Part shown: piece by piece, positions 1 through 36,895 of the stretch
Layout: every line of letters starts with the position of its first letter
How positions within the stretch are numbered: position 1 is the stretch's first letter
From: a virus
Virus record (IMG/VR): IMGVR_UViG_3300028708_000004
Location: 1 to 36,895 of that record
Reading direction: 5' to 3' (one strand)
DNA length: 36,895 nt
Translations under genes and position numbers: made by a program
Notes under the pieces: generated by a model
Told to the model about the DNA's origin: nothing
The model's input: the letters and a program-made list of their open reading frames with translations, nothing else
The model's database searches: none

Positions 1-3
1 CGC

Positions 4-23
4 CCATCACCATTCGGTGATGG
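4..23 (-). terminator. Small hairpin over the end of the leftmost gene
   Basis: CCATCACC (4-11) pairs perfectly with GGTGATGG (16-23) around a 4-nt loop. It spans the stop codon at 7-9 of the last minus-strand gene. An 8-bp stem at an operon end fits a weak terminator, but whether a U-rich tract follows cannot be seen, because the window ends 3 bases later. Confidence 0.35.
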
Positions 24-573
24 TGTGGCCGGGACCGACGACGGGCCGGCGCGGGTCGGTGGAGAACTGGCGCAGCTCGATGCGGTGGATCTGGCCGCCG
101 ACAGCCCGGTCCAACCAGGTGCTGGCGAGGTCGTTGCCCCGCAGGCCGGCGCCGATCCAACCGTTCACGTCGAGGGTCGATCGCCAGTGGCCGTCGCGCT
201 GGAGGATCCCGTCGGAGTGGCCGTCGGCGAAGGTGGATCGCCAGTGGAGGCCGTCGTCTTCAAGGATCGCCTCGACGTTCGTTCGGGACAGGGCGGTTCG
301 GATGGCCTCCGATGTCCGTCGAAGGTCGTCCTCGTCCAGCCACACGTGCGCTCTCGGTGGTACGGGGTTGACCTCCTCGATCGGCCCGTTCTTGGGGTGG
401 CACACCTCGCACCACCCGGCGTCGGGGTCGTCGAGGGTGATGTCGCAGCGGATGCACCGGTAGGGCCGGCCGATGTCGGTCAGGCCGACGTGAGTCGGCA
501 TGGTCGTTTCGAGCGAGTTGTCGAGCAGGTCCATAATGCGCTGGTATCTCTCGGAGCGTGGTTTCTGGGGCAT
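7..573 (-). CDS. Zinc-ribbon protein of unknown function (188 aa)
   Basis: Last gene of the leftward early operon. Residues about 40-58 hold two CxxC knuckles (CIRC and CEVC, 12 residues apart), a zinc ribbon. The rest is acidic and tryptophan-rich, with two HWRST repeats (about residues 110-114 and 128-132), and is not a family I recognise. The start has only a distant AGGA-type ribosome binding site about 13 nt upstream, so an internal methionine about 14 codons in (MDLLDNSL) is a possible alternative. It follows the primase-helicase gene after 110 bp of relatively AT-rich spacer. A DNA- or RNA-binding accessory role would suit the zinc ribbon but is inference only. Confidence 0.7.
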   Translation of the reverse strand: MPQKPRSERYQRIMDLLDNSLETTMPTHVGLTDIGRPYRCIRCDITLDDPDAGWCEVCHPKNGPIEEVNPVPPRAHVWLDEDDLRRTSEAIRTALSRTNVEAILEDDGLHWRSTFADGHSDGILQRDGHWRSTLDVNGWIGAGLRGNDLASTWLDRAVGGQIHRIELRQFSTDPRRPVVGPGHTITEW

Positions 574-683
574 GATTCGGGTAGTCCTAGGATCGGGTTT
601 CGGGCCGGTTGGGCTTGGTCATTCCTCGGTGATTGTTGATTTAATTGCGTTCTATTGCACCCCTTCGGGTTATTCATCGCAAA
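574..683. other. Non-coding spacer, AT-richer than its surroundings
   Basis: The 110 bp between the primase-helicase stop and the zinc-ribbon gene contain an AT-rich stretch (about 635-690) and a small CCCTTCGGG hairpin at 661-669. Read on the minus strand, a tiny open frame encoding MTKPNRPETRS also occurs here. I see no convincing promoter. Confidence 0.4.
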
Positions 684-2969
684 TCAATCAACGATCACCA
701 GGAAATCCGTCAGGGGGTTCACCTCGTACCGGGGGGCCGGCGCTCGACCACGCTTAGAGATCCTTTCAGGCGGTGCCAGTTGCCGGACGTACCCGTTCCC
801 TTCCAACAGGTCGAGTGCTGCCCGAACCCGTTCGGGTGATGTCAGGCGGCGATGGTTGGCGTGATGGGCTTCAGTTTGGGTGAAGATGCGATGCCGTTCG
901 GCCCATCGCAGGATCGCTCGGGCGTCCCCTTCGACCTCCCCGGCACTCATGATGTCGAACGCCACGAGTGCATGGTCGATGAAGTAGTCGGCGATCGCCA
1001 CGGCGTCCTCCATGAACGGCGCCTGCACCGAATGGCGCCACCCGTGGCGGATGTTGGTGGCCAGATGCAGCAGGCCGGCGATGCGGGCGGTGTGACCGGC
1101 CAACTTGGTGGCCCAGTCGGCGATGTGGCCCAAGTCGCCGAGGCGTTCCAGCAGGCGTGGTTCGATCGTCGTCTCGAACCGTCGCAGGACGGCTCGGGCG
1201 TCTTCGCTGAACGTGAGGATCGCGGTGGTGTCGCCCCGGCATTCCCCGAGGATTCGGGCCATCAGGAGCACTTCGTCGTGGTACCGCTGCTCGACGTCGG
1301 CGGGCACGGGGGTGGGGTCGATGAGGCGCCGGCCCACGTTCGACACGGGGACCGACCAGAGGAACCGTCCGAGGAGGCCCCGACCGCGAGCGCCGTCGAT
1401 CCGGCTGAGCTGGCGCAGCACTTCGGGTTGCACGGTGAGTCCGAGGGTGAGCGCCGGCCGTTCGATCAGTTCAGGGGGCCGGCCTTTCCGGTCGACCCGC
1501 AGCGGCGACCCAACATGGCCTTTGAGGTAGACGGCGAGGTTGTTGCCGCCCTTGTTGTACCGGCCGGCCATCATGGAGAACACGTCGCCCTCGTCGGAGA
1601 ACATGGCGAGCTGCCCGCCCTGTTCGGCGAGGAGGGAGGCGAGGGCTTCGGGGGTGGCGTCGTCGACCAACAAGCGGGGCATGACGGGCACTTCGATGAC
1701 GGCGGCGAGGTCGGCCATGGCCCGAGCGAAGTTGACGGCCTCGGGTCGGGCGTCCTCTTTGGCCCGTTCGGCTTCAGCCTGGGCTTTGGCGGCGTCGGCG
1801 TCGGCGATGGCCTTCATGATGGTGGCTTCGGCCACGGCCGGTTTCGCTTGGGTGACCGCTTCGAGTTCGGCGTCGTAGATGGGGCGGGTCATCCGCATGA
1901 ACACCGGGGTCTTTCGGGCACCCGGGGCCATGGCGACCGAGGTGTACAGGTTGAGGGGTTCTTCCCATCCGGGCCGGGGTTCGAGGCGGACATGGCCCCC
2001 GGCGGTGGCGGCCAGCACGGAGAGCCCAAGCACACCGGGCAGATCGACAGGGGTTTGGGTGGCGTGGGCGAGAGCGACGACGTATTCGTGGAGCCAGAGC
2101 GGGAGCTGATGAGCGGGGAACGTGGGGACCTTGGTTTGGTGACCGAACGGGACCGGGGGGGACCACTTCCAATTGTCTTCAGCTTTGGGTGATGCCTGAC
2201 CGTTTTCCGTAGCGGTACTGACGAACGGTCGCAGGTCGTCAAGTCCGCGCCCGCGGCCGAGATGTTCGGCCACGTCCTTGGCGCCGGCCACCGGCAACAT
2301 GGTCCGCACCTCCGCGGCCACCGGTTTCAGGTGGCGAACGACATCAGCGACATGGCGATGACCGGCCTCGTCGTCGTCCCCCACGACGACGACCTTGGCG
2401 CCCGCGAAGAACTCGTTGTACTCGTCACGCCACTTGAGGGCGCCACCAGCATTCGTGGTGCCGACGGCCCCGGCCCGTTCGACCGCCTCAACGTCCTTTT
2501 CCCCTTCGCACACGTAGATCGTCTGGCCGGTGGCCACGGCCGCCATGACGGTGGGGAGCCGGTACGGGACCCGACGAGCGCCGTTGAGGCCCCACCGTCC
2601 ATCAGGGGTCCGCTGAGCGAAGCCCTTGGGGTCGTAGCGGACGACCTCGAACAAGGCGACGTCGTTCTCGTCGGTGTAGGTGTAGACGGCAGCGACCCGA
2701 CGTTGTGTGGACCGGGGTTCGTCGTCGTCGTCTTCGAGCAGGTCGGCCCAGTCGAGTCGGAGAGCTTCGAGGATGTCATCGGCGAGACATCCTGCGTGAC
2801 ACTTGAAGACGACGGCCTGTTCGGTGCCCCGGGCGATCGACAGGCTCGGGCGTGAATCTTGGTGCGCCGGACATCTGGCTGTGATGCGCTGCCCGCCCTT
2901 CGGGTTGCACCCGGCAGCCAACAGGGCATCTCGCACGACTTCGAGGGGGTCACTCGTCAGGCGACTCAT
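684..2969 (-). CDS. TOPRIM primase / DUF3987 helicase-like replication protein (761 aa)
   Basis: Probable replicative primase-helicase of the phage. The N-terminus has a CHC2-like zinc site (C33, H36, C57, C61). A TOPRIM domain follows at about residues 150-205, with CEGEKD at 154-159 and GDDDEAG at 197-203, the metal-binding acidic motifs of primases. From about residue 285 on it resembles DUF3987, including the NTP-binding-type loop APGARKTPVF (348-357). An ATG at 2969 (MSRLTSDPLE) is preferred over the longer open frame, whose extra N-terminal residues are low-complexity Arg-rich and lie over the upstream gene in another frame. The gene overlaps its upstream neighbour by 20 nt, so the two are probably translationally coupled. 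The terminal about 90 residues look like a winged-helix tail. Confidence 0.88.
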   Translation of the reverse strand: MSRLTSDPLEVVRDALLAAGCNPKGGQRITARCPAHQDSRPSLSIARGTEQAVVFKCHAGCLADDILEALRLDWADLLEDDDDEPRSTQRRVAAVYTYTDENDVALFEVVRYDPKGFAQRTPDGRWGLNGARRVPYRLPTVMAAVATGQTIYVCEGEKDVEAVERAGAVGTTNAGGALKWRDEYNEFFAGAKVVVVGDDDEAGHRHVADVVRHLKPVAAEVRTMLPVAGAKDVAEHLGRGRGLDDLRPFVSTATENGQASPKAEDNWKWSPPVPFGHQTKVPTFPAHQLPLWLHEYVVALAHATQTPVDLPGVLGLSVLAATAGGHVRLEPRPGWEEPLNLYTSVAMAPGARKTPVFMRMTRPIYDAELEAVTQAKPAVAEATIMKAIADADAAKAQAEAERAKEDARPEAVNFARAMADLAAVIEVPVMPRLLVDDATPEALASLLAEQGGQLAMFSDEGDVFSMMAGRYNKGGNNLAVYLKGHVGSPLRVDRKGRPPELIERPALTLGLTVQPEVLRQLSRIDGARGRGLLGRFLWSVPVSNVGRRLIDPTPVPADVEQRYHDEVLLMARILGECRGDTTAILTFSEDARAVLRRFETTIEPRLLERLGDLGHIADWATKLAGHTARIAGLLHLATNIRHGWRHSVQAPFMEDAVAIADYFIDHALVAFDIMSAGEVEGDARAILRWAERHRIFTQTEAHHANHRRLTSPERVRAALDLLEGNGYVRQLAPPERISKRGRAPAPRYEVNPLTDFLVIVD

Positions 2970-3624
2970 GAATCCGGCCCACGGCGTCGTTGACGATGTC
3001 GCCGATCCATGTTGGACCTCCTCTTCGGTCTGGTGGCCTCGGAACATCAGATGGCCACGACACCCGATCGCCTCGGTGATGGCGGTCGAGTTCGGCCGGG
3101 GTCGGCAGTCGACCCCACGCCCGCACCCGTTGGTAGCACCAGTCGCAGAGCAATGCCGGTTCCTCGAGGCGATCTTCGACGGTCGTCGGCGTCGCCGTCC
3201 TCGGGGGCTCCCATCGAGGCCCACCTGCCGCCGCTTCAGTCCTCGCACAGTTCTCGCATCCGGGGTCGGAGCGCACCAACCCGAGGTCGGCCCGGTCGGT
3301 CGCGGTGGGCCGGCGCGGCACCGGGTAGCGGTTGATGATCGTGACCGCGATGTTCGTGTTGTGGGCCAGTCGTTTGAGGAGCAGGTCGAGATGTTCCTCG
3401 TCGAGCACGGCCTGATCGGTCATGGCCGTCGCGGTGCCCCCGACGACGTCGGTCCCGAACCGGACGGGCGCCCCGTCGTAGGCTCGGGCCCGGAGGTTGC
3501 CTTGCTGCTCGCGCATGCGACCGATGAGCGTCGTGTTGTTCTCGATCGTGTCGAGCTTGCGGGCGATGTCCGCCATGCGACCGGCGAGGGCCTTGGCGAG
3601 TTGGATGCGCTGTCGGTCGTTCAC
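2950..3624 (-). CDS. Zinc-ribbon protein upstream of the primase (224 aa)
   Basis: The start is the GTG at 3624, preceded by an excellent ribosome binding site (TAGGAGG, 4 nt spacing); the longer open frame upstream is Arg/Ser-rich noise over another gene. The N-terminal half (1-100) is helical. The C-terminal half carries CxxC pairs at C123/C126 and C160/C163 plus H182/H183, a probable zinc ribbon. The stop overlaps the primase-helicase start by 20 nt. I do not recognise the family. Its position suggests a replication accessory protein (primer or ssDNA handling), but that is inference. Confidence 0.75.
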   Translation of the reverse strand: MNDRQRIQLAKALAGRMADIARKLDTIENNTTLIGRMREQQGNLRARAYDGAPVRFGTDVVGGTATAMTDQAVLDEEHLDLLLKRLAHNTNIAVTIINRYPVPRRPTATDRADLGLVRSDPGCENCARTEAAAGGPRWEPPRTATPTTVEDRLEEPALLCDWCYQRVRAWGRLPTPAELDRHHRGDRVSWPSDVPRPPDRRGGPTWIGDIVNDAVGRIHESPDE

Positions 3625-3631
3625 GATCCTC

Positions 3632-3778
3632 CTACGGCTTGTTTTGCTGGATGAGGATGGCGACGATCTGCAGGGCCTGTTGGGAGTCGAACCCAGCTTG
3701 AATGAGCGCCGTGTAGATCTCGAAGAACGCTGACGCCATGGCCCGTAGCTCAGCATTGGGCTCGACCGGTCCGTTCAC
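3632..3778 (-). CDS. Small conserved-looking phage protein (48 aa)
   Basis: Short gene starting at a GTG that overlaps the previous stop in a GTGA junction (3775-3778), the same coupling used throughout this operon, and ending 7 nt before the next GTG start. The protein begins VNGPVEPNAELRAMASAFFE and continues as one amphipathic helix pair with a Gln-rich tail ending QQNKP. No domain is recognised. The tight junctions on both sides and the balanced amino-acid composition support its being real. Confidence 0.65.
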   Translation of the reverse strand: MNGPVEPNAELRAMASAFFEIYTALIQAGFDSQQALQIVAILIQQNKP

Positions 3779-3942
3779 TCGTTGACGATCCCGTCCAACA
3801 GGGCCTGCAGGTGTGCCGGCATCATCTCCCGGTCGATGCCCATCGCCATGTACAGCACGAGGTCGGTCAACTGGTCGACCCGCTGTTCGGCGAGGGACGC
3901 CCGGCGGATGATGTCGGAGAACAGGGGGTCCTCGGAGATCAT
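3775..3942 (-). CDS. Small unknown protein (55 aa)
   Basis: ATG at 3942 sits in a TGATG junction with the upstream gene and has GGAGG 7 nt upstream; the longer open frame to 4290 is an Arg/Pro-rich shadow of the neighbour. The sequence (MISEDPLFSDIIRRASLAEQ onward) is a predominantly helical, acidic/hydrophobic protein with a heptad-like stretch (LAEQRVDQLTDLVLYMAMG). It may be a small dimerising protein. Function unknown. Confidence 0.65.
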   Translation of the reverse strand: MISEDPLFSDIIRRASLAEQRVDQLTDLVLYMAMGIDREMMPAHLQALLDGIVNE

Positions 3943-4199
3943 CACGCCACCTCCGAGTTCGCCACCATCAACGCTTCGGCGACCGTCATCGACGGGTGCT
4001 GGCGCATGATGGGGCGCAGCTGGTCGAGGGCACGGTCGAACGCTTCGGCTTCGGCTTCGACGTGACGCACCGACTCCCACCGCTGCTTGGCCCCGGCCAA
4101 CAGGTCCGGCCATGTGGCTTCCCGAGTCCGGATCCAACCCTTGTCGGTGGTCGGTTGGGACAACACGACGGGCAGGTCGAGAGACTCGAACGTGATCAT
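3942..4199 (-). CDS. Unknown phage protein (85 aa)
   Basis: ATG at 4199 has an AGGAG ribosome binding site 7 nt upstream. The protein starts MITFESLDLPVVLSQPTTD, then has an acidic helical segment rich in E/A (residues about 45-60) and ends in another helix (MTVAEALMVANSEVA). No known motif is seen. The stop overlaps the next start by one base. Confidence 0.65.
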   Translation of the reverse strand: MITFESLDLPVVLSQPTTDKGWIRTREATWPDLLAGAKQRWESVRHVEAEAEAFDRALDQLRPIMRQHPSMTVAEALMVANSEVA

Positions 4200-7086: not shown

Positions 7087-7511
7087 CAGGTGGCCTCCCT
7101 CGGGCGGGCAGGGAACATAGATACGACCTCGTAGCGTTTGAGCCAACCTTCGCGGCGGGCTAGTTCGATCCATCGCCAACCCGCGCTGTCACGGATCGGC
7201 ATGTCGGACGTAACGAGCATGTACGGGGCGGCGTCGGCCACCAGTGACAGGAGCGCGGCGTTGGCGATGAGCTTCTTCGCCGTGTCCGTTCGGGTGGTTC
7301 CGTTGCGCCGCGAGGGGGACAGCCAAGAGCCCTTGCACTCGATCCACCAGACCTGGCCGAGAGGGTCGACGGCGACGAGGTCCACTTCGATCTGCGTGTA
7401 GGGCTCTCGCCAGTGGCGTTCGATGATCCGCCAGCCGGCGAGGGTCAAGTTGTTCTCGACAACGGCCTCGAACGCCCTTCCTTGGGTACCGGCATCGGCT
7501 TGGAAGGTCAC
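7086..7511 (-). CDS. PD-(D/E)XK nuclease-like protein (141 aa)
   Basis: Small restriction-endonuclease-fold protein. The core motif is easy to see: acidic helix residues E15/E19 (FEAVVENN), then IEVDLVAV with D44, then WWIECKGSW with E58 and K60, the D...ExK metal site. The length (141 aa) suits a single-domain nuclease such as a resolvase, DNA-end-processing enzyme or small restriction subunit. The start is GTG at 7511, overlapping the methyltransferase stop by 4 nt (GTGA); the longer ATG frame over the methyltransferase is rejected. Its coupling to a DNA methyltransferase makes a restriction-modification pair possible. A recombination nuclease is the conservative reading. Confidence 0.75.
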   Translation of the reverse strand: MTFQADAGTQGRAFEAVVENNLTLAGWRIIERHWREPYTQIEVDLVAVDPLGQVWWIECKGSWLSPSRRNGTTRTDTAKKLIANAALLSLVADAAPYMLVTSDMPIRDSAGWRWIELARREGWLKRYEVVSMFPARPREAT

Positions 7512-8761
7512 GACTTCCGCTCCGGCTTGTCGAACACGATGATCTGCTCCGGGTATCGACCCTCGTTCTCGCCCTGGTGCAGACCCCCGGTGTCGAGTTG
7601 GTCGAACCAGCGCAGGTCGAACCCGATTCGCATCAGTTCGGTCACGTGCCAGGCGGTCACGTACTGCCGGGTGTACTGGCGGTCGTGGTCCTTGACGTTG
7701 AGAACGAGTCGGCCACCAGGCTTCAGGACGCGCCATGCCTCTTCCCATGCTTGGGTGTGGAACGTGCGGTACTTCTCGCCCCACTGAAGTGATCCGGCGC
7801 TGTCGGGGCTGAGCTTGCGCCCGAGGTCGTGCGTGTAGCTGCGCCGTACCGACCCGTCCTTGGCGTCGTGCGAATCAGCGAACCGGTTGCCATAGCAGGG
7901 CGACGTGCACACGGCATCGAACACCTCGTCGTCGAACTGCAGGTCGAGGGCAGAACCCACCTGCGTGTCGGGATGTAGCGCGGCCCATTCGGGCTCGATT
8001 TCCACGCCGACGGTTGCTTGCGGTAACTCGTGGATCCGGCCGGTGCCGGCGAAGGGATCGAGCACCAGCGTGTACGGATAAGTCGGCAACGCCGCGGCGA
8101 AGATCGGGATCAGTGGAAGTGAGAATCGGGCGGGGTGGGAGATGCCTTCGCCGAGGTCGGGCTTCGTGACCCGAACCTCCTTGTTCTTTCCGACGATGAT
8201 GGCCTCACCCTCGTCGTCGAACAGGACGACCTCATTACCGTCGACCTCTATGGCGGTGACTTCGCGTTCATCGCCTTCGTCGTCGACAACGAAGTCACCA
8301 GGGACGACGTCGCGGGCGGCCTGCTTCTGGTGCTTCCCGATACGGGAGAGCACCTGACTCGGGCTGAGCTTGTCCGTGGGGGCTTCGGCGATCGCCTGCT
8401 CAACGACGTCGGGATGGGCCGCGAGCTTGCGAAGCTTGGACCGCTCGGGCGCCGAGAAATTGTTCCCATCCAGCAACAATTTCCCCCGTCCCGCCGTCTG
8501 CTTGGGCAGTAACCGTCCCAACGCCGTGCACGCCCGCAGTTGAATGATGCGGGCGGAGCGCACGGCTTCGTCGGCAAGGCCCTTGGCACGGGCGTACGCT
8601 TCGATGCCGTTCGCTTGGGCACGGGCCTCGTTCACTTGCGCTAGGTCAGAGGCTTGAGCCAACCAGGCTGTGGCCGGCCCGACGTAGGCACAAATCGCAC
8701 CTGCCGGGTCAACTGAGGCGTCGATGTCGCCGGGGTCGGGGAGGGGGACGAGGGCGCTCAC
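7508..8761 (-). CDS. DNA N4-cytosine/N6-adenine methyltransferase with N-terminal accessory domains (417 aa)
   Basis: Residues about 205-417 form an S-adenosylmethionine-dependent DNA methyltransferase: motif I DPFAGTG (235-241) and catalytic motif IV TSPCY (286-290), a variant of TSPPY with Cys in place of the second Pro. Motif I precedes motif IV. LKPGGRLVLNVKD (346-358) is a typical late strand. Residues 1-145 are a helical domain with basic/aromatic stretches, and about 150-200 look like a small beta-barrel (repeated VVDDEGDE / VLFDDEGEA). These could recognise DNA or the partner. The gene overlaps both the RecB-like nuclease upstream (ATGA-type) and the PD-(D/E)XK nuclease downstream (GTGA). 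It may protect phage DNA from host restriction. Confidence 0.85.
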   Translation of the reverse strand: MSALVPLPDPGDIDASVDPAGAICAYVGPATAWLAQASDLAQVNEARAQANGIEAYARAKGLADEAVRSARIIQLRACTALGRLLPKQTAGRGKLLLDGNNFSAPERSKLRKLAAHPDVVEQAIAEAPTDKLSPSQVLSRIGKHQKQAARDVVPGDFVVDDEGDEREVTAIEVDGNEVVLFDDEGEAIIVGKNKEVRVTKPDLGEGISHPARFSLPLIPIFAAALPTYPYTLVLDPFAGTGRIHELPQATVGVEIEPEWAALHPDTQVGSALDLQFDDEVFDAVCTSPCYGNRFADSHDAKDGSVRRSYTHDLGRKLSPDSAGSLQWGEKYRTFHTQAWEEAWRVLKPGGRLVLNVKDHDRQYTRQYVTAWHVTELMRIGFDLRWFDQLDTGGLHQGENEGRYPEQIIVFDKPERKS

Positions 8762-10375: not shown

Positions 10376-11917
10376 TCAGATTCCCATCGAGGCCATTGCC
10401 ATCTTCCGGCGCATCATCAAGCGGTTGGCGTCCGAGGGACGTTCGCCCATGTCGTCGAACCAGATGTCGAGCCGGAACTCATTGAATCGACGCGGCCCGA
10501 ACGCCGGGGCGACGACGACGTCACAGCCGAACGACAGCAGGATCGACCGGCGCTCGTCCGGGGAGCCCGCCAGGAACGTCTCACGGATCGCCTCGGGCGA
10601 GGACGACAGCTGAACGGGAGCAAGTTCGGCGAGGCGTCGGTCGATCTTGCCGATCTCATCATCGATGCCGGCTTCGATGAGCCCGGCCATCGCCAGGGTG
10701 ATCTCCTGTCGGGCCACCGACATTGCGGTCGCCACCCGTTGCGCCTCGTGCCCGGCCTTCTGTGCCAGCAAGGCGTCCCGTTCGTCGGCGTCGACGTCTC
10801 CCGCGGCGATCATGGCGGCGAAGGCCGGCGTGTCGATGAAGTCGAGGAACTCGTTGGTCACCCACTCGTCGACCTTGCCGGCGACGATGCCCAACTTGCC
10901 GCAGCCCCCGAGGCTCTTGACGCACTGGTAGAAGACGAACTTCTTGCCGTTGTTGCTCTTGTTGGACTTCCCGTAGAGGACGGCGGCGCACAGGCCACAA
11001 CGCATGGGGCCACCGGACAGCATGTACTTGCGGGCCTTGCGGTTCTTCTTCGGCACCGGCCGCTCCTCCCCGTTGACGATCTTGGTGCGCTTCGAGCCGT
11101 ACTTGGCCTTGAGCGCCAGCCACGTCAGTTCGTCGAGGACCGGTTCCCATTCGGCCTTGCCGACGATCTTGCCCCGATGCACCCGATGGCCGGCGTTGGT
11201 GGGCGACAGCACGGCGCCCTTGAGCGACGTGATGTTCCACTTCTCGGCACGGGCCGGTCGGATCTCTCGGGTGTTGAAGTCGTTGACGATGTCGGTGAGG
11301 TTCTCGCCGGCCAGCATGCGCCGGGCGGCTTCCTTCACCACGAGGTCCCGGCCTTCGACGACGGCGAGACGAGACCGGCCGAACTCGTCCTTCTTGTGCT
11401 CGTAGGCGTAGGGCTTGCCTCCGGAGGGGCGACCCTCACGGGCCCGTTCGTCGAGGTGGGTGTTGACGTTGATCTTGGCCTGCTTGGCGTACTCGGCGTT
11501 CACCAGGTTGAGGATGTCGGACGACAGCGACTGGATGAGGTCGTGGACGCCTTCGGTCCACGTGTGCAGGAACCCGATGCCGGCGACGAGGCAGGCCGCT
11601 TTGAACTCGGGCCAGATGAGTTCGTGCCGAGAGATGCGGGCCTGGTTCTTGGCGAGCACGTCGCCGATCTGGCCGCGGCGGATGCCGTCGAGCATCGCTT
11701 CGTACTGGGGCCGGAACACGTCGGTGTCGGCGGCGGTCAGGTCGTCGTCGACGAACACGACGTAGGGGCGGCCGGGCCATCGGGCTTCGCCGTCTCGGAT
11801 CCCGAGGGCCACCTGCGTCTCGGTGGAGTCCCGAGTGCCGTCGGGATTGTCGGAGAGCCGGGCGTAGATGGCGTACGGGAGAGTGGATAGGTTCAGATTC
11901 GGGGTCTTCAGCTTCAT
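10376..11917 (-). CDS. Large serine integrase (513 aa)
   Basis: Site-specific recombinase for phage integration. The N-terminal resolvase domain has the catalytic serine S22 in IYARLS, DDDLTAAD (57-64) and the ARISR segment (93-97). A recombinase domain follows (about 140-275), then a zinc ribbon (C307, C310, C332, C339) and a coiled coil (about 370-450), the layout of phiC31/Bxb1-type integrases. The length of 513 aa is normal. ATG 11917 has no ribosome binding site. An imperfect inverted repeat begins 3 bp upstream, so the gene is either leaderless or its translation signals overlap the attachment/operator site. The partner factor is probably the gp3-like protein at 5313-6707. Confidence 0.95.
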   Translation of the reverse strand: MKLKTPNLNLSTLPYAIYARLSDNPDGTRDSTETQVALGIRDGEARWPGRPYVVFVDDDLTAADTDVFRPQYEAMLDGIRRGQIGDVLAKNQARISRHELIWPEFKAACLVAGIGFLHTWTEGVHDLIQSLSSDILNLVNAEYAKQAKINVNTHLDERAREGRPSGGKPYAYEHKKDEFGRSRLAVVEGRDLVVKEAARRMLAGENLTDIVNDFNTREIRPARAEKWNITSLKGAVLSPTNAGHRVHRGKIVGKAEWEPVLDELTWLALKAKYGSKRTKIVNGEERPVPKKNRKARKYMLSGGPMRCGLCAAVLYGKSNKSNNGKKFVFYQCVKSLGGCGKLGIVAGKVDEWVTNEFLDFIDTPAFAAMIAAGDVDADERDALLAQKAGHEAQRVATAMSVARQEITLAMAGLIEAGIDDEIGKIDRRLAELAPVQLSSSPEAIRETFLAGSPDERRSILLSFGCDVVVAPAFGPRRFNEFRLDIWFDDMGERPSDANRLMMRRKMAMASMGI

Positions 11918-31215: not shown

Positions 31216-31698
31216 TCACCGTAAGCCGACGTCCTCCACCCAAAGCTGGTACGGATACGCGGGGTCGTCGAAATGGGTGAGGGTGGCGGTCGCGGCGCCG
31301 ATGGTGCGTGTGGCGCGAGGTAGGAGCGTGTGGGAACCGGTCGTCGGGCGCCAGAGCAAAGCCGCAGTGAGCACGGTGTTGACGTTCATGGTGGTGCCCG
31401 CCGCGTCCGGCCTCGTCTCCCCGGTGTCCGCCACCCGGCCGATCGATACGCCATCAGAGAGAATGTCGAACAGCCACCGAGCGGCCACCGTCATCGACTT
31501 GGCATCACCTTGAATGGAGCAGAGCAAACGGACACGGTAGAGCCGAAGCGCGTCGGTGGTGACTGCCAACCCATAGCCCGCGGGGAACGTGTAGGGAGTG
31601 ACGGCCGTGGCCGTGGCGATGGCGGTTTGTCCGGGTATGCGGTAGCCGATGATCCCGTAGCCGAGCGAGCGCGTTGGCGCAATGTCGCCGAGCCTCAT
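31216..31698 (-). CDS. Virion-associated protein of unknown function (160 aa)
   Basis: ATG 31698 overlaps the collagen-like gene's stop. A beta-rich protein ([60 protein letters not shown]). Its C-terminal [11 protein letters not shown] is a motif I have seen at the end of small actinophage tail or decoration proteins, without a firm role. It lies between the fibre and the portal. A fibre partner or capsid decoration is possible. Confidence 0.65.
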
Positions 31699-33407
31699 GC
31701 GCCGAGCAACCCCTTGGCCTTGAGTTCATCGATCAGCGTGGCCAGCACCTGCATCGTCTCGAAGAGTGTGTCGGAGGTGGCGTCGAGGGTCTTCTTGGCG
31801 GTGTGCGCCGTCGTTGACCAACCGGTCGAGCGGGCGGTACCGGCGGCGCCGAAGAACCCGAGAACCGATGACGCCGAGCCCACCTCAACGTTGCCGGCGA
31901 CGTCGAGCGCGGCGAGGCTCACGAGGCGGTCGTAGTTCCACGTGAACGGCAGTCCGTAGGCTTGCCCGGTGTTGTACGGGCGATCGGTCAGGAATCGGAT
32001 GCTGCGCCAGTTGTAGTTGTGCGCCGCGGTGGTGTGCAGGATCGTCAGTCGGTGATAGGCCGCGTAGGTGACGGTCGTGGCCAGATGCATGAAGTAGGCG
32101 CCGTCGGGAACGGTGGCCGTCGGCAGGATCGCGTTCCACGTGGTGCCGTCCGTCGACTCTTCGAGCGTGACCTGATAGCCCTTCGGCGGCCCGTACTCCT
32201 GATAGAGCTGGAGCATCGACGCATAGCTCGACGCCGGCCCTTGCAGCACGACGCGCCACCGCGGGTACGTCGTCGAGTTGAGCACCGCACCGCCCGCCGT
32301 GTGACCAGAGAAGATCTCCTTTACGACGGTGCTGGCGAGCGCCACCCACGCCGTTCCATTCCAGTACTCGGCGACCGTGATCGGGATGCTCTGGAACCGG
32401 TCGGACCAGGTCTGCGTGATCAGCGGCAACAGCGAGCGGTACGCGGCAAGCGAACCGATACCGGTGATCTTCGCCGTGGATTGCAACCGGAAATCATCGC
32501 CGGTGATCGGGCCGGTGACGCTCACATACGGGCGCCATCCCGTGTCGAAATCGGCTCCGCTGATCTTCGTCAGGATCTCGGTGGCCACCCCGCCCGGAGC
32601 GACGCCCGGCCCCGCCGCGCCGGTCGAGCCCGTTGCCCCGACCGGTCCCTGCGCACCGGTAGCGCCCGTGTCGCCCTTCGGACCCTGTGCCCCTGTCGCT
32701 CCCGCGGGGCCCTGAGCGCCGGCAGCGCCGGCAGGACCAGGATCACCCTGAGGACCGGGGGGCCCCGCGGGACCGGGCACCGTTGAATCAGCACCGGCCG
32801 GACCGGCTGGACCAGGATCACCCTGGGGGCCAGCAGGGCCGGGCACGGTCGAATCGGCACCCGTTGGACCGGCTGGCCCCGCAGGACCAGGGTCACCGGC
32901 AGGACCGGGGGGACCCGGCACCGTGGAGTCGGCGCCCGGTGGCCCCGCGGGACCTTCAGGGCCGGATGGCCCCGGATCACCTGGCGGCCCCGCGGGACCA
33001 GGCACCGTCGAATCTGCCCCGGGGGGACCGGCAGGGCCATCCGCTCCCGCCGGCCCCTCCGCCCCCGGGGGTCCGGCTGGACCAGCCGGACCGGGGGGAC
33101 CGACCTGGCCCTCAACGGTCAGTTCGACCGCCTCGACGGGCTGCAGGTCCAACGCGACCGTCGTCGTGTGCAGCGACAGGGCGACGGTCTGCGTGATGGC
33201 GTCCAGCGTCACCTCATCGGCGTCCGTCGAGTAGTTCAACGCCACCGACGACGGGGCGCCTTTGGCATCGAGGGTCACGCCACCGGCCTGCGCCAAATTG
33301 AGCGCTACGAGGTCGTAGCGGACGTCGAGACCGACCGGACCGGCAGCCGGGGGCAGGTCCAAACTGACCGGCACCGTCACCAGGTCGAGCGTGATCTCCT
33401 CAGGCAC
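31695..33407 (-). CDS. Collagen-like fibre protein (570 aa)
   Basis: Probable host-contact or decoration fibre. Residues 1-100 are repeated beta strands (VSLDLPP, VTLDAKG, VALSLH). Residues about 103-268 are Gly-X-Y collagen repeats, with GADSTVPGP occurring four times (about 130, 158, 183, 205). These predict a triple-helical shaft. The C-terminal about 300 residues form a beta-rich head ([56 protein letters not shown]) that may bind a receptor. It is encoded between terminase and portal, unlike the usual location beyond the tape measure. Confidence 0.82.
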
Positions 33408-33852
33408 GGGCCCGGCCTTTCGCCAACAGCTCCTGTTGGGGTGTCAGCGCCGAGGTGGCCACGGGCGTGACCACGGTGATCGGGCCGGGATCGTCACGGG
33501 ACACGTCGTCGGTGATCTGCAGGCCGGTACAGATCCACCACGTGCGGATCGTGTCACCGGTCGTCGAGTCGAGTTCCTCGAGGTCGAACACGTAGCCCGA
33601 CTTGAGTTTCGCGGTGTCGTCCCCCGACATCGACAACAGGACCGTCGACGGGACGCTGCCACCCGACGGCGTGATCACCGAAGTGGCGAACTCGACGACC
33701 AACGCACCGTTCGCCGAAGGACGCACCTGCGCCCGCCAGTCGGAGCCGGACACGTCGATGGGGTCGCCGTCTTGGGTGATGTTGACGGGGATCGTCAACG
33801 GGTCGCCCCGGACGATCGTGCCGGACTCGGGGTACTTGCTGGTCGCCGCCAT
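33400..33852 (-). CDS. Ig-like/BppU-type N-terminal domain protein (150 aa)
   Basis: ATG 33852 overlaps the large terminase stop (TGATG). The sequence begins [20 protein letters not shown] and continues [20 protein letters not shown], the pattern of BppU-type baseplate Ig-like domains. Further strands lie at [17 protein letters not shown] and [10 protein letters not shown]. The last residues ([15 protein letters not shown]) are helical. Probably forms the attachment domain for the collagen-like fibre encoded immediately after, overlapping its start by 8 nt. Confidence 0.7.
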
Positions 33853-35465
33853 CAGATCCCCGCGAACCAAGAGGTCGTGCGCCGGTTCAACATGCCCTTG
33901 GCGATGCAGTCCCGACGCGCTTCGGCTGAAATGACCGCGGCCATCGCCGCGTCGATCTTGTTCGGTGAATGCGGCCGGTCTTTGGTGAGGGTGAACAGGT
34001 TGCGGCCGTCGTCGTCGAGCGCCGGCAGGAGCTTGCGCCGGGCGTTGGAAATGTGACGGGCGAAGACGCTGTCACCGTCATGTGTAACGTCCCCGCCCGC
34101 CACGGCCGCAACGAAGTACCCGACAGCGTCGCCCAGTTTGCGACTGCGGAGGTTCGTCACGAAATCGGCGACGTGGTCCTTGCCGTAGCGTCCCGTCCAC
34201 CGGTCGGTCAGATGCTCGATCTTCTGGGGGTCCGAGTAGATGAGCCCCACGTCGAACCGCTCGAACGCCTCATCGACGGCGGCGTCGGCCAGTTCGAAGT
34301 CGTGCTCGTAGTTCTCATCGGCGCCGGGTGGGCGTTCGATGATGCACAGGGGCCACTGGTGGAACCCGTCGACGGTCGTGGCGATGATCGCCAGGGCGTC
34401 CTGCCAGCGGGCGCCGTCCACGCCGATCGAGATGAGCGTCCCGTCGGGCACCACGATCTCCGGGTGCGCCGCGTTGCGCCACGCCTCGAGGTCGAAAGCG
34501 ACATCCTCACCGGCATGCACCCGGTTCAAGAAGAACCGCTCGGCCTGGGCCGGGTCACGCTTGAGCAGCGCCTCAACTTCGACGTCGATGCGATCGAGGT
34601 CGACCCAGCCTTTCCACGTGCGCCCGTTGCGCACCGAATCCCCGTAGGCGTGACGCATCGCTTTGCGCCGTTCGCTCTTGTTGCGCACCGACCCACCGAT
34701 CGGCGCCGGGTAGTCGACGTACACGCCGACCGGGTTCTCGTTCGTGTCCTGCGCGATGGAATCGTCGACCAGAGCCCAAGCGTTCGTCGTTTCGATGAAG
34801 CGCCCCCCCATGCCCGACAGGTTCCTGCGCTGGTTGTCGGCGAGGCGTTTGCCGTTGTTGCGTTCCGTCCATCCGTGCGTCTCATCACAGACCACGCACG
34901 TGACACGCTGACCGAGTCGGGACAGCGCCGCAGCCGTCACCGGCTCGATCAGCCCGCCGCCCGGAACGTTGATGCGAGTCAGACCGGCGTCCGGTAGCTC
35001 GGCATCAAGGGGTCCGAACCGGATCATCGGCAGTAGCGCCCGATAGATGTTCGCCGTCTGATCCTCGGAGATCGCCGTGATCTGAATGTGCGGTGTCGGC
35101 CACGGCCGGCCCACGATCACCCCGTCGGCATCCCACCCATCAGGCAGGGCCGGGCCCATCGCCTCGAAACAGATGATGGCGGCACTGAAGGGGCCTTTGC
35201 CCCACTTCTGGGGCCTCGTAAGCTGCGACCCCCGCTCGTAATGGAAGCGAGGACCCGACCATTTCATCGACTTGCCCTTGGGGTTGATCCGGTAGTGATG
35301 CACCAGGAACCGGACCATCTCGTCCGTCAACCGGAACGGGTCGCCCATCTGGTCGCCGTCGGGGATCACACAGTGGGCTTCGATCCACTGCCAGGCGATC
35401 ACGCCCAACGTCGGGAAGTCGAGGCCCGTCTCCGCCAGTTCGGCGTCAGGGCCGCGCCATGTCAT
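33852..35465 (-). CDS. Terminase large subunit (537 aa)
   Basis: ATPase-nuclease that packages the genome. Walker A-like segment RPQKWGKGP (84-92) with variant loop, Walker B VVCDETH (D194, E195), adenine-side motif near ITAISEDQTANIYRALL. The C-terminal RNase H-like nuclease shows D350 in ISIGVDGARW, D412 in YSDPQKIEH and D505 in SPNKIDAAMA. The length of 537 aa is normal. It follows the small terminase and a tiny membrane protein, and overlaps the next gene by one base. Confidence 0.93.
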   Translation of the reverse strand: MTWRGPDAELAETGLDFPTLGVIAWQWIEAHCVIPDGDQMGDPFRLTDEMVRFLVHHYRINPKGKSMKWSGPRFHYERGSQLTRPQKWGKGPFSAAIICFEAMGPALPDGWDADGVIVGRPWPTPHIQITAISEDQTANIYRALLPMIRFGPLDAELPDAGLTRINVPGGGLIEPVTAAALSRLGQRVTCVVCDETHGWTERNNGKRLADNQRRNLSGMGGRFIETTNAWALVDDSIAQDTNENPVGVYVDYPAPIGGSVRNKSERRKAMRHAYGDSVRNGRTWKGWVDLDRIDVEVEALLKRDPAQAERFFLNRVHAGEDVAFDLEAWRNAAHPEIVVPDGTLISIGVDGARWQDALAIIATTVDGFHQWPLCIIERPPGADENYEHDFELADAAVDEAFERFDVGLIYSDPQKIEHLTDRWTGRYGKDHVADFVTNLRSRKLGDAVGYFVAAVAGGDVTHDGDSVFARHISNARRKLLPALDDDGRNLFTLTKDRPHSPNKIDAAMAAVISAEARRDCIAKGMLNRRTTSWFAGI

Positions 35466-35569
35466 CGATGATCTCGGAAGCCCACAACGAGTAGGGCAAT
35501 GGTCACGGCCACACCGTCTAAGGCCACCACGACTGTCAACGTGTTGATCGCGTCGATCACATCACTCAT
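35462..35569 (-). CDS. Tiny single-span membrane protein (35 aa)
   Basis: ATG 35569 overlaps the small terminase stop (ATGA), and its stop overlaps the large terminase start (4 nt). The sequence MSDVIDAINTLTVVVALDGV, then AVTIALLVVG, contains one hydrophobic helix (about 8-29) and a basic end (FRDHR). Tight coupling on both sides suggests it is real. The function is unknown, and a membrane protein inside the packaging cassette is unexpected. Confidence 0.6.
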   Translation of the reverse strand: MSDVIDAINTLTVVVALDGVAVTIALLVVGFRDHR

Positions 35570-36030
35570 TCCCGCATCCCCTTCAACCGGTCTCGAATGT
35601 TCGTCACGTTCCCCGTCGATTCGGGGGTTGCTTCCGGCGCCGGTTCGTCGACAAAGGCGTAGTGGAGCTTCGTGGCGCCCGTCGGGGTCAGCCCGAACGC
35701 CTCGTCGATGCGCAGGATCAGGGGCAGGAGGCGCACGGCGAGGTCGGTGGCCCGGCTGTCGCCATCCTCGGACTCGATCGCCGCCACCCATTGGTCTTCG
35801 AGCTGCGCCCGTCGGCTGAGGGGCTCGATGAACCCGTCATGCCACGTCGTGGCCTGCGGCGTCGACCACGCCCACCGCCACCAACGCCTACCGGCCGGTC
35901 CCAACCTCACCGGGCACTTGGGTGCAGGACCAGAGCGCCCGGTGAGGGGCAGCCGGTGAGCTGCCTGAGAAGCCGCGACATCCCGACGTTTCCGACGGGC
36001 GTCAGCAGGCTTCGGGACCGGGGACGGCAT
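35566..36030 (-). CDS. Terminase small subunit (154 aa)
   Basis: Binds the packaging site and hands DNA to the large subunit. A basic N-terminus (KPADARRKRRDVAASQAAHR) is followed by GPAPKCPVRLGPAGRRWWRW, ATTWHDGFIEPLSRRAQLED and a helical LRIDEAFGLTPTGATKLHYA. This fits actinophage small terminases, with the oligomerisation core before the C-terminal recruiting tail (TNIRDRLKGMRE). It lies directly upstream of the large subunit. Confidence 0.75.
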   Translation of the reverse strand: MPSPVPKPADARRKRRDVAASQAAHRLPLTGRSGPAPKCPVRLGPAGRRWWRWAWSTPQATTWHDGFIEPLSRRAQLEDQWVAAIESEDGDSRATDLAVRLLPLILRIDEAFGLTPTGATKLHYAFVDEPAPEATPESTGNVTNIRDRLKGMRE

Positions 36031-36353
36031 CAGCTGGACTTCTTGGCCGAATGCTCAGCGGCCTTCGACGCCGACTTGGACGACTCGTGAGTCTCCGAGG
36101 ACTTGGCCTTCGACCGGCGCGAGCCTGTGCCGGTGAACGTGGTCCCCGAGACCGGAGGATCCGGCGGCACCTCGTACGGGTACTCCTTGCCCGTGTAGTT
36201 CTCATAGGCGTCCTTCGACGCCTTCAACGACTCTTCCTTCGCCTCCACCTGACGGGCGTTCTCGGCGTCGATCTGCTCGTCACGGAACCCCTCGGGCTCC
36301 GGTTCCGGAACAGGACCAGTGCCCGGCGTACCGGGCAGCGACGGGTCACTCAT
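36030..36353 (-). CDS. Disordered charged protein (107 aa)
   Basis: ATG 36353 overlaps the HNH stop (ATGA). The first 20 residues are Pro/Gly/Glu-rich. Residues about 22-50 are an acidic helix (RDEQIDAENARQVEAKEESL). YTGKEYPYEVPPDPP follows, and the C-terminal 35 residues are Ser/Lys-rich (SKAKSSETHESSKSASKAAE). No domain is recognised. A nucleic-acid-binding basic tail is possible. It lies between the HNH and small terminase genes. Confidence 0.65.
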   Translation of the reverse strand: MSDPSLPGTPGTGPVPEPEPEGFRDEQIDAENARQVEAKEESLKASKDAYENYTGKEYPYEVPPDPPVSGTTFTGTGSRRSKAKSSETHESSKSASKAAEHSAKKSS

Positions 36354-36673
36354 GGGCGGTATCTCCCTTGTGCGATGCCGCCCTCGTGCCCCGATTTGCG
36401 TCTATCGCAGACGAGGCAGATGGGCGCCAGGTTGTCTGGATGGTGGTTGTCGCCGGCCACGATGTGATCCACCCGGTTCCCGTAGGAGCCGCACAGGTGG
36501 CACGTGAAATGGTCACGGCGCAACACGAACTGTCGGAGGCGGGGCCAGTCGACCGGGAGCCGGGAGCGACGGGTAGAGGTCGCATACGGGACCGGCTTGT
36601 GGGCCTCGCAGTAGGTGTCGGAGGTGAGGGTCGGGCACCGAACAGCGGCGCAGGGACCCCACTTGCGTCCCAA
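36350..36673 (-). CDS. HNH endonuclease next to the terminase (107 aa)
   Basis: N-terminal zinc residues C8, C13, C22, H25, then the HNH core: CHLCG (C58, C61), VDHIVAG (D69, H70), HHPDNLAPICLVC (N81, C86, C89). Small HNH proteins beside terminases assist cos-site cleavage during packaging in HK97-like phages, so that is the expected role. The start is a TTG at 36673 with AGAGGAAAA upstream. First gene of the late block, opposite the structured element. Confidence 0.88.
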   Translation of the reverse strand: MGRKWGPCAAVRCPTLTSDTYCEAHKPVPYATSTRRSRLPVDWPRLRQFVLRRDHFTCHLCGSYGNRVDHIVAGDNHHPDNLAPICLVCDRRKSGHEGGIAQGRYRP

Positions 36674-36720
36674 ATGGCTTTTCCTCTAACCGACCTCGGG
36701 CAACTACCTGATGCTCACGG

Positions 36721-36749
36721 GTTATAGCACTCCGTTAGACGAAAGTCGA
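36721..36749 (-). promoter_or_regulatory. Candidate late promoter
   Basis: On the minus strand TCGACT (36744-36749, 4 of 6 matches to TTGACA), a 17-nt spacer and TATAAC (36721-36726, 5 of 6 matches to TATAAT) make a plausible sigma-70-type promoter for the HNH-terminase-capsid operon, about 50 nt upstream of the HNH start. Confidence 0.5.
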
Positions 36750-36760
36750 GAGGTCGATGT

Positions 36761-36891
36761 TTTCATATAACGGTCTGCTAGGTAAACCAAGCAAAGGCTT
36801 GCTGTAACCAGGTTTCCCCTGGTCAGGAGGGTCTCGCACTGCTTGTTGGAGCAGGGACAGAGACATGTTAGAGCTTGGCCGTTATATGAAA
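36761..36891. ncRNA. Structured element with closing inverted repeat, function unknown
   Basis: The 131-bp element is closed by TTTCATATAACGG (36761-36773) and CCGTTATATGAAA (36879-36891), a perfect 13-bp stem. Inside are CCAAGC (36787-36792) / GCTTGG (36873-36878), ACCAGG (36807-36812) / CCTGGT (36818-36823), and a stem GTCTC (36831-36835) / GAGAC (36860-36864) with nested CTGCT / AGCAG (36839-36843 / 36850-36854). Several helices at a junction suggest a folded RNA or a protein-binding DNA site such as cos or pac. It codes for no protein. I know no family that matches, and strand and transcription are unknown. Confidence 0.55.
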
Positions 36892-36895
36892 GCCT

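Follow-up and report, generated by a model that had tools for sequence, protein, structure and literature searches.

The end of the viral record analysed here appears from its sequence to be the packaging-side cohesive end (cos) of a phage of soil origin. This record, called the window below, is taken whole from IMG/VR; it has 36,895 bases and is classed as linear. A folded stretch at 36761-36891 lies beside the DNA-cutting and packaging genes of this phage; it is best read, with a probability of about 0.7, as the sequence immediately inward of the packaging-side cohesive end in a cos phage that carries an HNH-TerS-TerL module. The feature is real and is most likely not a regulatory RNA. Phage genome ends of this kind are ordinary, and the one unusual trait here is the long inverted copy of an end motif. 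What looked like an orphan RNA would then be the mapped genome end of an uncultured phage group.

Contig ends and the end box

The minus-strand reading of the record starts AGGCTTTCATATAACGGCC. Relatives of the window were collected from IMG/VR via the HNH protein and the large terminase (TerL), and four other contigs that share the HNH-terminase module have their end at the homologous base: L002 starts AGGCTGCC, L004 starts AGGCTCCC, and L011 and L012 both start GGGCTCTCACCATATAAACGGCC, the same sequence in two samples. Two more contig ends fall within one base (L005 one base earlier, L013 judged by its box). In L046, picked out with a DNA pattern for HNH, no junction is clear. Three contigs span the junction: L010 (...GACCGGCTGAGGA/GGGCTCTC), L008 (...GACCGTTGAGGCC/AGGCCTCC) and L007 (...GACCGTTGAGGCC/AGGAGTCG).

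In the full-length relative G008, a 46,563-bp contig of L011, one end matches L010 up to base 2879 and the other resumes the match at base 2890. The stretch between them, CGGCTGAGGA, is exactly 10 nt long; L010 has it and both ends of G008 lack it, which is what the loss of a 3' overhang in sequencing would leave. In this relative, the gap fits a trimmed overhang of about 10 nt. G009, from a different sample, begins at the same base as G008. Genome contigs, in which the nearest TerL is 54-57% identical, were used solely for viewing some contig starts. The right end of the relative (L010 2400-2880; G008 1-4000) is non-coding and carries short CTCGAC/GTGCTCGAC-type repeats, with several recurrences in the last 4 kb.

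Cultured Streptomyces phages with related large terminases have record starts homologous to the window end. The Kromp record starts GGGCTCTC and ends CGCGGGGGA, the Dubu record starts GGGCTCTG and also ends CGCGGGGGA, and the phiSASD1 record starts CGCGGGGGA, followed by GGGCTCT.

The earlier note had listed a cos site among its options, and this option is well supported by the coinciding contig ends, the 10-nt gap in the full-length relative and the homologous starts of the cultured phage records. Sequence comparison shows homology between the window end and the left end of related phages. We infer by homology, from L002, L004, L011, L012, G008 and the cultured phage starts, that at the packaging-side (left) cohesive end the double-stranded DNA begins at 36895 on the minus strand of the window, and that the cut and the virion DNA end lie there. 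Among the points against the cos reading are the absence of the window's overhang from the record and the start of L003, 13 bases ahead of the homologous base (CTGCGAGGCC/AGGGCTTT), which shows that not all contigs end there.

A short box, TGTAYGG, recurs close inside the ends. With one mismatch allowed, 15 of the 20 ends have it within their first 40 bases, where shuffles give an expectation of 1.4; the excess is inflated because the pattern was derived from the same ends, some of them related. The box of the window, TATAACGG (36879-36886), and that of L011, TATAAACGG, read as variants of TGTAYGG, and the former was not counted as a match in the test. The recurring box at left ends is a candidate that could be tested as the small-terminase site in HNH-terminase actinophages. 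More generally, metagenome contigs can disclose cos sites, and the length of their overhangs, where contig ends coincide and one full-length relative has a short gap.

The inverted repeat and its inner stems

The folded stretch begins at base 5 of the minus-strand reading, 4 bp from the end of the record. Its arms, TTTCATATAACGG at 36761-36773 and CCGTTATATGAAA at 36879-36891, are complementary at 13 of 13 positions. Read on the minus strand, the outer arm (36879-36891) covers the end-box variant of the window, and the inner arm (36761-36773) is its exact inverted copy, 105 bp inward. Beneath this closing stem, GCTTGG (36873-36878, plus strand) abuts the right arm and pairs with CCAAGC at 36787-36792, for which GGCTTG at 36796-36801 is a second partner, giving the local alternative hairpin CCAAGCAAAGGCTTG (36787-36801, plus strand). 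Further inside lie two structures of unspecified strand: a local hairpin ACCAGG/CCTGGT (36807-36823, arms from 36807 and 36818) and a local stem GTCTC/GAGAC (36831-36864, arms from 36831 and 36860) that encloses an inner stem. The perfect closing stem, the helix under it, the alternative pairing of CCAAGC and the further stems are thus all present as they had been described from the letters.

How unusual is this fold? The controls for fold and repeat were dinucleotide shuffles. As RNA, the element reaches a minimum free energy of -59.2 kcal/mol on the plus strand (z -5.1) and -47.9 kcal/mol on the minus strand (z -4.2); none of 200 shuffles was as good on either strand. Folded as DNA, it has a z of -4.35. 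A 13-bp inverted repeat was produced by 1 of 3000 shuffles of the last 240 nt of the record, and five other perfect 13-bp inverted repeats occur elsewhere in the window. The description of the element as far more ordered than normal was overstated: it beats shuffles, but among 1636 141-nt windows of the same genome it ranks in the top ~1% and not first, the ranks being rough at 25 shuffles per window. The strongest fold of that scan is a long hairpin (GGTGATTGTTGATTT...AAATCAATCAACGATCACC) at 623-703, at the end of the helicase gene, which is possibly a processing or termination structure; the surrounding 574-740 folds with a z of -3.0.

Several other accounts of the element were tried and rejected. 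The CAAGC motif is present in 4 copies, a number matched by 9.5% of shuffles. A small inverted-repeat mobile element was set aside, the element being single-copy in the record. An exact search with the 16-mer CATATAACGGCCAAGC returned 7 viral contigs, about the chance expectation, and a search of cultured phages gave no match for this stretch. In bases 1-110 of L003, a GTTAGA/TCTAAC motif is repeated beside the end; CTCTAAC and GTTAGAG also occur in the window.

Packaging genes and the extent of the record

On the minus strand, the genes run from the end in the order HNH endonuclease, a 107-aa protein, probable small terminase (TerS) and TerL. The HNH gene (36350-36673; phrog_333, E 2.4e-19) and the large terminase (33852-35465; phrog_19179, E 3.1e-79) are clear. 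The assignment of the small terminase (35566-36030) is weak, with a Pfam Terminase_7 match at E 8e-4, below its cut-off, and a minor tail protein match in PHROGs. A retron ncRNA would call for a reverse transcriptase next to it; the neighbours here are HNH, TerS and TerL, and no retron protein was found among ten proteins scanned, about 10 kb of the genome probably being outside the record. Between the element and the HNH gene lies a promoter-like site, TCGACT-17-TATAAC (36721-36749, minus strand), which has counterparts in 8 of 9 sequences; it falls below the threshold of a strict promoter scan and was hence unlisted there. If this site is the packaging promoter, the element probably lies outside the packaging transcript. 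No intrinsic terminator, a GC-rich stem followed by a T run, was found in 36400-36895.

Is the other end of the record also a genome end? Here 684 bases separate the helicase gene from position 1, whereas in G008 its distance to the right end is 10.4 kb, which led to the rejection of position 1 as the other cohesive end. The comparison with this full-length relative suggests that the record lacks about 10 kb beyond position 1 and that position 1 probably marks a break in the assembly; with about 9.7 kb added to its 36.9 kb, the record would come near the length of three long relatives (46.5-47.3 kb). In four relatives, no counterpart was found for a 188-aa protein at 7-573. The earlier note had placed the element between the end of the early operon and the packaging genes, but with a linear record and about 10 kb probably missing, it is not seen next to the end of an early operon.

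Other genes of the window include a serine recombinase-type integrase (10376-11917; Resolvase and Recombinase domains), from which it follows that the phage is probably temperate. A minus-strand protein at 7508-8761 has a methyltransferase-like C-terminal part (PADLOC MTase_II, E 1.6e-9), and another at 31695-33407 has collagen-like GPAGPPG repeats and is probably a tail fibre.

Competing readings and known systems

Could the stretch nevertheless be a structured phage RNA, either regulatory or a 3'-end stabiliser of an early transcript running across cos once the genome is circular? Both had been proposed, and the fold energy, which beats all shuffles on either strand, and the two alternative pairings speak for them. 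However, shuffles fold as well as the sequences of eight relatives and six cultured phages (z -1.8 to +1.3; for L003 the fold and box tests take in 13 extra bases), and the 13-bp pairing is kept in none of them. Compensatory changes are not supported either: on the alignment, 49% of cells are paired and the covariation score is no better than in slid controls, while two pair counts exceed most shuffles, but the alignment is poor (47% mean column identity) and the pair count is weak either way. Rfam searches at gathering and relaxed (E = 5) thresholds returned nothing, in line with the remark that no known RNA family is recognised; no terminator was found, and the DNA folds as well as the RNA. 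For both options, the promoter-like site downstream of the element is a further difficulty. A conserved regulatory RNA is not supported, and a structured RNA of either kind is very unlikely. It is still less probable that the contigs stop through assembly failure at folded DNA and not at a virion DNA end. The window end does fold strongly, but relatives without an unusual fold end at the same place, L010, L008 and L007 were assembled straight through, G008 has a gap of exactly 10 nt, and the records of cultured phages begin there too.

The preferred reading, a cohesive end, leaves the exact inverted copy of the end box unexplained; it could serve as a second site or be functionless. There is a considerable chance, although below even, that the cos end is real while the long inverted repeat and the inner stems are without a role, having arisen through chance and local duplication in non-coding sequence that changes fast. 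The long inverted copy is absent in all relatives, so that a role for it is unsupported; across the family, a second end box is no more frequent than expected by chance (Fisher p 0.15, the same as the control), and other windows of the genome fold as strongly. Against this, the rarity of the 13-bp repeat among shuffles and the coincidence of one arm with the conserved end box have to be set. Alternatively, two inverted terminase boxes about 105 bp apart might be bound as a pair, or extruded as a cruciform, by terminase and HNH, fixing the cut and the direction of packaging. This is unlikely, and we know of no paired inverted-box cos layout for HNH-terminase phages.

In phage lambda, cosB consists of repeated terminase sites beside cosN. 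The element resembles cosB in lying between the cut and the first of the packaging genes and in its possible second site copy, but its copies are inverted and are candidate sites only. Lambda also has 5' overhangs and encodes no HNH protein (PMC9410871). Points in common with the Streptomyces phages Kromp, Dubu and phiSASD1 are a left end that starts GGGCTCT and large terminases that are 35-42% identical. They differ in that their records show the 9-base CGCGGGGGA and that, in the stretches examined, no HNH is annotated before the terminase genes; Kromp and Dubu also have no strong fold, unlike the window.

In HK97, the small terminase site lies 15-29 bp downstream of the cut, inside the end; the overhangs are 3' and 10 nt long, the HNH protein gp74 stimulates cutting, and TerL and gp74 may each cut one of the strands (PMC11331095, PMC9410871). 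One of these papers gives the overhang as 10 nt in a legend and as 12 nt in its discussion (PMC9410871). A long inverted copy further inward is not described for HK97 (PMC11331095, PMC9410871). The likeness is one of layout and gene content: a gap the size of a 10-nt 3' overhang in a relative, HNH with TerS and TerL, and a conserved box about 10-20 bp inside the end, close to where the HK97 site lies. The same parts in the same order suggest that the small terminase would bind near the end box, that TerL and HNH would cut the two strands, and that packaging would proceed from the 36895-side end. The inverted copy and the inner stems would act, if at all, on the DNA level, as a second, inverted binding site or in the spacing of the complex, and not as a conserved RNA. 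By this analogy, HK97-like recognition by terminase and HNH offers the best reading of the stretch.
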